Source: Rhizobium hidalgonense (GTDB lineage Bacteria; Pseudomonadota; Alphaproteobacteria; Rhizobiales; Rhizobiaceae). From it: 64,000 nt of DNA. Below the pieces are notes generated by a model. The model worked only from the letters and a program-made list of their open reading frames with translations. It did not search any database and was not told where the DNA came from. Below are positions 13,620-15,180 of this stretch, in pieces; within the stretch, counting starts at the first letter, position 1, and each line of letters starts with the position of its first letter. A program made the translations under genes and the position numbers. The stretch lies in contig NZ_LODW01000044.1 of NCBI RefSeq assembly GCF_002914525.1, positions 62,001-126,000 on the forward strand. The letters run 5' to 3'.

Positions 13620-14804
13620 TCAGGCCGGTCCTCGCAGGGACCACAATCCAGAAAGCGTCGTCAGCGCCGTCACGCAGATATAGCCGACGAGCGGCCAGGC
13701 GCTGTCGCCGCCGAGCAGAAGCACGAACACGGTTCCGGCAAAGCCGACGATGATGCTCTCGACGCAGAAATACAACGCGACCGCGGTGCCTGCCGTATTG
13801 CCGAAGGCGTCGAGCGCGCCGTTGGCGGTGACTGCCGTCGCAAGGGCGATGCCTATCGCGATGACCCACATCGGCACGACGAAGCTCATCAGGGAAGGCT
13901 GCAGAAACAACTCTCCGAAGGTAAGTAGAATGGCGCCGAGAAGCAGTATCGCCATGCCTCTGGCAAGGCTGCCTGCAATGCCCCAGCGCATGATGAAGTC
14001 TCTGGCGAACCGCGCTGTCACGATCATCACGAGCGCCACCGTGGCGAAGACGAGGCTGAAGCCGATACCGGAGAAACCGGCCTTACCGATCAGGATACGG
14101 GGCGCCGTCGAGAAGAAGATGAAGAAGGCGCCCATCGAGGCGCTGAAGCCCGATGTATAGACCCAGAAGGGAAAGCTGGTGAGGATCGGGCGGACAGCGA
14201 TCTTCGCGGTGGCGTTGGGGCGGGTTTCATGCCAGCGCTTACCGGCGTTGAAAAGGGCGGCAACCGATAGCAGGCCGATGACCAGGAAGATGGCACGCCA
14301 GCCGAAATGATCGGCGATCAAGGCTCCGGCGATCGGGCCCAAAGCAGGCACGAAGGAGAGGATAGAGCCGAGAAGGCCATAGATGGTGCTGCTTTCGGGA
14401 CGCCCGGCGTAAACGTCACGCACGGTTGCGAAGGTTGCGACGAGCGCTGCCGAGGCGCCGATGGCCTGCAGCAATCGTAGCACCACGAAGAGCGATGCCG
14501 ACGAGGAGCCGGCAAGCAGCAAGGAGGAAGTGGCAAAGAGTGCCGTTCCTGCGAGCAGCACGGGTCGTCGTCCGACAAGATCGGACATCGGGCCGAAGAC
14601 GATCTGCCCGGCGCCGAACACCAGCATATAGAGGCTGAGGGTCAGCTGGATGACTTCAGGTGAGGTGCCGAGTGCCTTCGGCATAACAGGCACAACCGGC
14701 AGATAGATATCCATGGCGAGGGAGGCCAGGATGTCGAAAGGCGCCATCAACGCCAAGGCTGCCGGCACCGAATAGGTCCAGCGCTGAATTTTTGGATAAG
14801 ACAT
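13620..14804 (-). CDS. FloR/CmlA-type phenicol efflux transporter (MFS, DHA1)
   Basis: Twelve-helix major facilitator exporter, 394 residues, of the Bcr/CflA drug-proton antiporter group. It aligns by eye with FloR/CmlA at many points: LMAPFDILASLAMDIYLPVV near the N-terminus, IQLTLSLYMLVFGAGQ, GPMSDLVGRRPVLLAG (motif A), FATVRDVYAGRPES, FATVALVMIVTARFA, RWGIAGSLARGMA and AVALYFCVESIIVGFAGT. These exporters pump chloramphenicol and florfenicol out of the cell. The start is the ATG giving MSYPKIQRWTYSVPAAL, which lines up with FloR; an ATG 16 codons upstream (14852) is possible. The leader peptide and stem-loop just upstream suggest drug-induced translation. It lies with the acyltransferase gene in what looks like an accessory insert. 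Confidence 0.82.
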   Translation of the reverse strand: MSYPKIQRWTYSVPAALALMAPFDILASLAMDIYLPVVPVMPKALGTSPEVIQLTLSLYMLVFGAGQIVFGPMSDLVGRRPVLLAGTALFATSSLLLAGSSSASLFVVLRLLQAIGASAALVATFATVRDVYAGRPESSTIYGLLGSILSFVPALGPIAGALIADHFGWRAIFLVIGLLSVAALFNAGKRWHETRPNATAKIAVRPILTSFPFWVYTSGFSASMGAFFIFFSTAPRILIGKAGFSGIGFSLVFATVALVMIVTARFARDFIMRWGIAGSLARGMAILLLGAILLTFGELFLQPSLMSFVVPMWVIAIGIALATAVTANGALDAFGNTAGTAVALYFCVESIIVGFAGTVFVLLLGGDSAWPLVGYICVTALTTLSGLWSLRGPA

Positions 14805-14868
14805 GGGAAAGAACCCGCTCAAATGATTTCGTTCGGCGGCGATCTGTCTCATCAGTATCGGGATTGGC

Positions 14869-14918
14869 CAGACAGACGCCGCAACAACAGGGCAGAGTTG
14901 TTGCGGCCTATTTGTCTG
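14869..14918 (-). promoter_or_regulatory. Stem-loop of a putative translation attenuator
   Basis: A perfect 11-bp inverted repeat GCCGCAACAAC (14878-14888) / GTTGTTGCGGC (14897-14907) with an 8-base loop begins directly after the stop codon of the leader peptide. An outer 6-bp helix, CAGACA (14869-14874) with TGTCTG (14913-14918), brings in the last leader codons (Ala-Asp-Lys). A ribosome stalled near the leader end would open this structure. No T-run follows, which favours translational over transcriptional control. The 3' arm has no obvious Shine-Dalgarno sequence, so how the exporter start would be hidden is unclear. Confidence 0.65.
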
Positions 14919-14937
14919 CGGATTTGGTTGTTCCCAT
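14908..14937 (-). CDS. Nine-residue leader peptide MGTTKSADK upstream of the phenicol exporter
   Basis: Short open frame ATG-GGA-ACA-ACC-AAA-TCC-GCA-GAC-AAA-TAG on the minus strand, too short for ordinary gene finders. AGGGG lies 6 bases before the ATG; a second ATG immediately upstream (14938-14940) would add one Met. From memory, the chloramphenicol-inducible integron gene cmlA has the leader MSTSKNADK, whose first eight residues inhibit peptidyl transferase and stall the ribosome. Six of nine positions are the same (M, T, K, A, D, K), the length is equal, and the downstream gene is a CmlA/FloR homologue. Leader function is inferred. Confidence 0.75.
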   Translation of the reverse strand: MGTTKSADK

Positions 14938-15180
14938 CATGCGCCCCTGACTGCGGCTCCGTCGTTCCTGAAGCGCTTTACCCGTTGTCTAGCAATGTCG
15001 CCGGGGTTCTGCAACAGCGCGCTCCAGCCTCCTGCGCCGCTATCTCGATAAAAGCGGTGGTTTAGTAGAATTATTTCTAAAAGTCAGACTTGCAGAAAAT
15101 GACACGACTGCCTATGCAAGGCCGGGTTGCAGATTCGCTCCTGATAGCCGGCAGAGCATTATACTTTTGGGAATATTTTA

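Follow-up and report, generated by a model that had tools for sequence, protein, structure and literature searches.

In the leader attenuators of ermC and cat, a ribosome stalled by a drug on the leader changes the RNA from a fold with segments 1:2 and 3:4 paired to one with segments 2:3 paired. The same logic is proposed here for a locus whose leader and resistance gene are unrelated to theirs. Both attenuators are named in PMC8876359, which also credits Stokes and Hall (1991) with cmlA attenuation, described as operating through alternative stem-loops in class 1 integron cassettes. In the presence of chloramphenicol, translation of the cmlA leader halts when Asp8 occupies the P site and Lys9 the A site (PMC11190716). 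Stalling by this drug is best with Ala at position -1 and less pronounced with Ser or Thr (PMC8987054). Related to this, a putative attenuator composed of a nine-residue leader and a perfect 11-bp repeat has been reported for floR, whose RNA rises with chloramphenicol; an 8-fold rise with florfenicol is cited in the same paper (PMC5890775). According to that paper, there is no overlap between the floR stem and the ribosome site of floR; its account of the attenuator names no third segment. The attenuator class is already known, as cmlA attenuation and the putative floR attenuator are in print. Neither is a cmlA/floR gene in rhizobia new, since a database match to cmlA/floR has been reported in Ensifer sp. 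M14, in an account that does not include a leader (PMC6115938).

The window (the whole stretch of 64,000 nucleotides that was analysed) carries on its minus strand, at 13620-14804, a gene for an exporter of 394 residues that belongs to the CmlA/FloR family of MFS phenicol exporters, as it scores 612.9 bits with the NCBIfam model NF033134, whose curated cut-off is 450. The protein has an identity of 62.1% with plasmid FloR and of 49.0% with CmlA1. FloR residues D23 and R109, which have been tied to phenicol recognition (PMC5890775), are kept in it, and a counterpart of FloR E283 was not matched, position 283 (own numbering) being Arg in both proteins. An agmatinase gene lies downstream, and flanks of 1.5 kb also contain an agmatinase at 15 of the 20 loci of the window's genus, at locus L065 and at four loci from named Rhizobium strains; an acyltransferase on the other side of the exporter is present in only 3 of those 25 loci. 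The agmatinase is thus a stable neighbour, which indicates that in the window's own branch the exporter is a chromosomal gene and not a cassette. In L015 there is a one-base length difference from the relatives early in the exporter frame, where an upstream in-frame ATG may serve instead.

The leader is read from the sequence as the frame MGTTKSADK plus stop (ATG GGA ACA ACC AAA TCC GCA GAC AAA TAG; 14937-14908, minus strand), which ends at a perfect 11-bp stem ahead of the FloR/CmlA-like exporter, as had been seen in the original prediction. Between its stop and the exporter ATG 103 nt were counted, instead of the 104 bases first given. An extra ATG immediately 5' of the start (14940) provides a ten-codon alternative, and the same ATG-ATG pair is present in six listed loci (L001, L002, L004, L006, L011 and L082). 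The likely ribosome-binding site of the leader is AGGGG (14944-14948, minus strand); most leaders of the family are preceded by purine-rich motifs, and in 12 of 78 loci none of the motifs sought was present. By analogy with cmlA, GAC (Asp8; 14914-14916, minus strand) is the predicted P-site codon and AAA (Lys9) would occupy the A site, with GCA (Ala7; 14917-14919, minus strand) encoding the predicted -1 residue at the stall. The match of six of the nine residues to MSTSKNADK, given in the original prediction as the cmlA leader, was borne out, and that peptide is found in locus L100; plasmid cmlA1 is preceded by MSISKNADK.

On the minus strand, the RNA downstream of the leader start can be divided into four segments. 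The 11-bp stem is formed by GCCGCAACAAC and GTTGTTGCGGC (14907-14897 with 14888-14878). Segment 1 (14897-14919) comprises GCAGACAAATAG and the stem arm GCCGCAACAAC, and it pairs with segment 2 (71 aligned rows). An outer helix had been claimed to take in the Ala, Asp and Lys codons; CAGAC/GTCTG was found to cover parts of the Ala and Asp codons. Segment 2 (GTTGTTGCGGCGTCTGTC; 14871-14888) pairs either with segment 1 or, through 12 pairs, with segment 3 (GACAGATCGCCGC; 14836-14848). The third segment was not noticed in the first reading, which saw the 1:2 stem; it is complementary to segment 2 (GCGGCGTCTGTC), and its CCGCC part also complements the ribosome site GAGCGG. One arm of helix 3:4, CCGCCGAACG (14830-14839), overlaps segment 3 and pairs with 14825-14815, that is, with segment 4 (CATTTGAGCGG; 14815-14825), in which GAGCGG (14820-14815) is the likely ribosome site of the exporter. 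Of the ten pairs of this helix, one is non-standard in the window, and a GAGCGG-like site is present in most of the aligned rows. A different sequestering interaction, a 7-base pairing of ATGGGAA with TTCCCAT, had been suggested at first; of 78 distinct loci, seven have it, namely the window itself, five near relatives and L011, and as it is not conserved it was discarded; the third segment at 14848-14836 fits that role.

Compared with the described systems, the window shares with cmlA a nine-codon leader ending in ADK, a stem of the type GCCGCA(G/A)CAAC, an exporter of the same family and alternative stem-loops ahead of the exporter start, as described for cmlA in PMC8876359. It differs from cmlA in its chromosomal position beside the agmatinase gene, in the exporter itself (the 49.0% identity given above), in the motif before the exporter start (GAGCGG in the window, AAGGAG in cmlA) and in the outer helix of segment 1, which is clearer in the window. 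The short leader and the 11-bp stem are common to the window and to floR (plasmid leader MGNSKSADK; exporter identity 62.1%), whereas floR is mobile and, although one of its segments could pair with segment 2, no 3:4 helix is predicted for it at the aligned place.

With a probability of about 0.87, the locus is a phenicol-sensing translational attenuator acting through the ribosome. Without drug, the leader would be translated and the ribosome released; segments 1:2 and 3:4 would then pair, and helix 3:4 would mask the exporter's ribosome site. With a little chloramphenicol, the ribosome making MGTTKSAD would stall at the point where Asp8 occupies the P site and Ala7 position -1, and would cover segment 1, whereupon segment 2 would pair with segment 3, segment 4 would be left free and the exporter would be translated. 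The 1:2, 2:3 and 3:4 pairings, the leader and the A/S/T rule at -1 are conserved in the loci described below; stalling by the drug at the window leader and the resulting rise in exporter translation are what the behaviour of cmlA leads one to expect. A strong hairpin after the leader could also belong to transcription attenuation, with the stem as terminator or anti-terminator and the stalled ribosome letting transcription through. This is very improbable, because no intrinsic terminator or terminator-like site was detected on the exporter strand in 14780-15180, the sole one lying on the opposite strand, and because the conserved parts run up to the exporter's ribosome site.

The switching expected of a translational attenuator was followed in silico in 71 RNAs, in which the stall at Asp8 was modelled by removing segment 1 from the folds, a step that by itself abolishes 1:2 in the stalled state. 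Without a ribosome, the mean pairing probabilities were 0.96 for 1:2, 0.05 for 2:3 and 0.75 for 3:4; with the ribosome held at Asp8 they were 0.03, 0.59 and 0.29, and with the ribosome held earlier 0.97, 0.05 and 0.80, respectively. The probability of 2:3 went up by more than 0.3 in 48 of the 71 RNAs, and that of 3:4 went down by more than 0.3 in 41 and up by more than 0.3 in two. Folding with and without a ribosome at codon 8 had been proposed in the original prediction, and in the window it gave the change expected of an attenuator: 2:3 rose from 0.00 to 0.97 and 3:4 fell from 0.91 to 0.01 on the Asp8 stall. The minimum-energy fold of the window RNA from 14900 on is 2:3. The alternation that characterises an attenuator (1:2 with 3:4 against 2:3, helix 3:4 lying over the ribosome site) is present at the level of sequence and predicted folds. 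Accessibility of the ribosome site rose weakly, from a mean of 0.27 to 0.31 in 78 loci, with a rise of more than 0.2 in ten of them, and the aligned 3:4 helix was not predicted even without drug in plasmid floR (L034), cmlA1 (L031) and L106.

Conservation of the helices was measured in an alignment of 71 loci; a further seven distinct loci, which have long insertions or different stems, were not included in it. The cells paired were 99.2% in the inner part of 1:2, 80.0% in its outer part and 88.9% in 3:4. Helices 1:2 and 3:4 together had 91.2% of cells paired (31-50% when slid) and helix 2:3 had 91.3% (32-56% when slid), percentages that are biased towards a structure derived from these very sequences. 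The covariation scores were 0.139 for 1:2 with 3:4 (0.048-0.069 slid) and 0.154 for 2:3 (0.029-0.098 slid). Double changes were not above the slid controls either for 1:2 with 3:4 (11 pairs and 24 cells, slid 6-12 and 14-33) or for 2:3 (6 pairs and 12 cells, slid 4-6 and 7-18). The case for the RNA therefore rests on the percentage paired, the covariation score and a few changes of whole segments. A shuffle control, which ignores relatedness and is inflated by related sequences, reached the observed change measures in 9 to 44 of 500 trials for 1:2 with 3:4 and in 2 to 6 of 500 for 2:3.

Whole-segment changes, in which a changed segment 2 is matched by a changed segment 3, were found in cmlA1, L069, L103 and L105; in the last two, segment 2 has GCGGTGATC and segment 3 has GATCACCGC or GATCGCCGC. 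In L077, L079 and L080, arms resembling GCCGTAAATTT/AAATTTACGGC substitute for the stem, and SATR is kept in the leader. The own 2:3 duplexes were stronger than composition shuffles in 69 of 78 loci (z under -1.64). When segments were swapped between loci, own pairs reached a mean of -20.8 and foreign ones -19.8 kcal/mol, a slight gain in a test that says little for most loci and is informative only for the few with diverged segments; for these, foreign partners as good as the own one were 0/76 for cmlA1, 1/77 for L069 and 2/76 for both L103 and L105.

Among 61 genomes, 20 carry an exporter at least 64% identical to that of the window, and all 20 belong to the window's genus, which is represented by 37 genomes. 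Genomes with an exporter over the NF033134 cut-off numbered 47 out of 297 in the family sample, 9 out of 249 in that of the order, 13 out of 398 in that of the phylum and one out of 385 in that of the class, the window's own; these four samples overlap. The loci compared here number 86, namely 20 from the window's genus, 45 more from its family, five from the order, eight from the phylum, four from plasmids and four from named Rhizobium strains; three further loci were left out as duplicates, and NF033134 scoring covered part of the 86 loci treated as family members. A loose detector of short open reading frames at a stem found the leader in 86 of the 86, with 62 distinct peptides, and a stricter leader pattern missed seven of them (L076, L077, L079, L080 and L103-L105). 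For 34 Bcr/CflA loci that score below the cut-off, which represent 32 distinct genes and include one with no more than 292 bases of upstream sequence, the loose detector gave no positives; among 258 pieces of the window four were positive, one of which is this leader. Taken together, these counts place the leader match above chance. The floR leader MGNSKSADK is common to nine of the 86 loci, several of which are near-copies of mobile floR and not independent.

Frame, stem and position of the predicted stall codon recur throughout the family, the conservation that the original prediction had proposed to look for, and its reading was not refuted; a native antibiotic-sensing translation attenuator in rhizobia is supported by these same features. 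Several loci depart from the common pattern. In L013, L014 and L077-L080 the stop is lost or moved and the peptide runs into the stem or loop, with the SADR/SATR part kept; perhaps the predicted stall does not require a stop at that place. L103-L105, from outside the window's class, keep the leader nucleotides CCGCAGACAG but translate them in a different frame, as MNNGNGPQTVR or MSNGNGPQTVR, Thr being still third from the end. L053 and L067 have about 60-75 nt extra between the leader stem and the exporter start.

A covariance model of the attenuator was searched in the window's own genome, 199 genomes of the family and 249 of the phylum. No strong match (E under 1e-8) was found before other genes; such matches occurred only in genomes with a family exporter, and the sole one away from a listed exporter (L155) stands before the apparent first codons of an exporter. 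This element (L155/L174; G551:C9:11790-11934) is a second strong attenuator copy, with E 2.6e-22 and the leader MQTADR, and it is probably a decayed one in which only the first exporter codons seem present. As for weak matches (E above 1e-5), the three inspected (L152-L154) resemble chance stems and were set aside. Rfam 15 gave no matches in 14600-15150 at E up to 1, a result that neither favours nor disfavours a structured 5' RNA answering some other signal (a metabolite, a protein, Rho or an RNase), with the small frame incidental. Such an RNA would suit a structure whose conservation exceeds that of the peptide's first half; it is nevertheless hardly to be expected, since in 80 of the 86 loci the frame stops at the stem and in the other six it runs into it, codons of both the AGN and the CGN type are used for the last-codon Arg, the -1 residue stays within A/S/T, and plasmid floR with the same leader has been reported to be phenicol-inducible.

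The peptide signal is most evident at the -1 position. Like the other leaders, MGTTKSADK has Ala, Ser or Thr at this place, third from its end, and like most of them it finishes at the stem. At this place, or at the aligned one in read-on leaders, the 62 distinct peptides have Ala in 43, Ser in 15 and Thr in four. On a tree of 60 rows, the -1 residue has undergone at least ten changes, always within A/S/T (40 Ala, 15 Ser and 4 Thr of 59), and the residue before it at least 14 changes over seven residues (S, N, T, K, Q, L and I). All 71 aligned rows have C as the second base of the -1 codon, with a G partner in 61; this base is still C in the ten rows whose RNA partner is not G, which indicates that RNA pairing alone does not explain it. 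According to a rough estimate of our own, if pairing fixed that C, random change would lead to Ser, Thr or Pro, and the chance of ten changes without any Pro would be about 0.02. Where the last codon specifies Arg, it is AGN in 22 and CGN in 16 of the 71 rows, as expected if the peptide matters. The attenuator could be the same and its natural signal a different one, either another peptidyl-transferase inhibitor or a natural substrate of the exporter instead of chloramphenicol. Linezolid has the A/S/T preference at -1 too (PMC8987054), but the exporter falls in the phenicol-exporter family and keeps FloR D23 and R109, and a signal of this other kind is considered unlikely, though not negligibly so.

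The same kind of leader and stem precedes plasmid cmlA1 (L031), floR (L034, L032) and floR2 (L033). In the careful 60-row tree, floR and floR2 group with L069 (support 87/94) and then with L057 and L061 (97/97), and this group joins L016, L017 and L020 of the window's genus (100/96), deep inside the window's family. A quick tree of 81 rows, which includes one misread row (L015, 52 residues), agrees on this nesting. The contig of L069 has only 8,152 bases, too short to place that locus on a chromosome. Because the loci from named Rhizobium strains fall among the rows of the window's family, the family in which floR nests appears to be Rhizobiaceae. On the other hand, cmlA1 pairs with L106, from a genome that does not belong to the window's class, and the pair lies beside the distant outgroup in a part of the tree where long branches come together; the place of cmlA1 is therefore unsure. 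Since floR and cmlA as one clade were not rejected (AU test, p 0.078), separate mobilisation of the two genes is not claimed. The closeness to the mobile control regions put forward in the original prediction thus stands for floR, and for cmlA it depends on an unsure placement. In L100 (G1013:C1, upstream of 1942405), a floR2-type gene and stem are joined to a cmlA1-type upstream region with the leader MSTSKNADK, and the junction lies, by eye, within a stretch common to the floR2 and cmlA1 types; from its sequence, it looks like a natural swap of attenuator parts. A total of 2,286 plasmid records match the window exporter at 60-80% identity.

These results suggest that at least floR brought its switch from chromosomes of such rhizobial relatives. 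In a broader view, we judge it reasonably likely that the attenuator is an old chromosomal sensor of the CmlA/FloR family, found in every member examined, that floR left a Rhizobiaceae chromosome with this sensor attached, and that at least 62 natural leaders record selection for the A/S/T-at-minus-1 rule of chloramphenicol, independently of laboratory ribosome profiling. The open-access literature, to which the search was confined, subscription papers being outside its scope, yielded no work devoted to such a leader in rhizobia or to floR having originated there. As far as searched, the chromosomal rhizobial members with their leaders, the family-wide A/S/T record and the nesting of floR are new, as is the third segment, both for the chromosomal members and for floR.

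The third segment is a possible answer to the puzzle posed in PMC5890775, namely control by a stem that does not touch the ribosome site. The many natural leaders constitute a ready test set for the way in which chloramphenicol reads the nascent chain. With this locus, a chromosomal source for floR comes into view, and the gene may well have travelled together with its drug-sensing control; the source of a clinical resistance switch becomes testable, and rhizobia become a harmless laboratory system for work on this switch.
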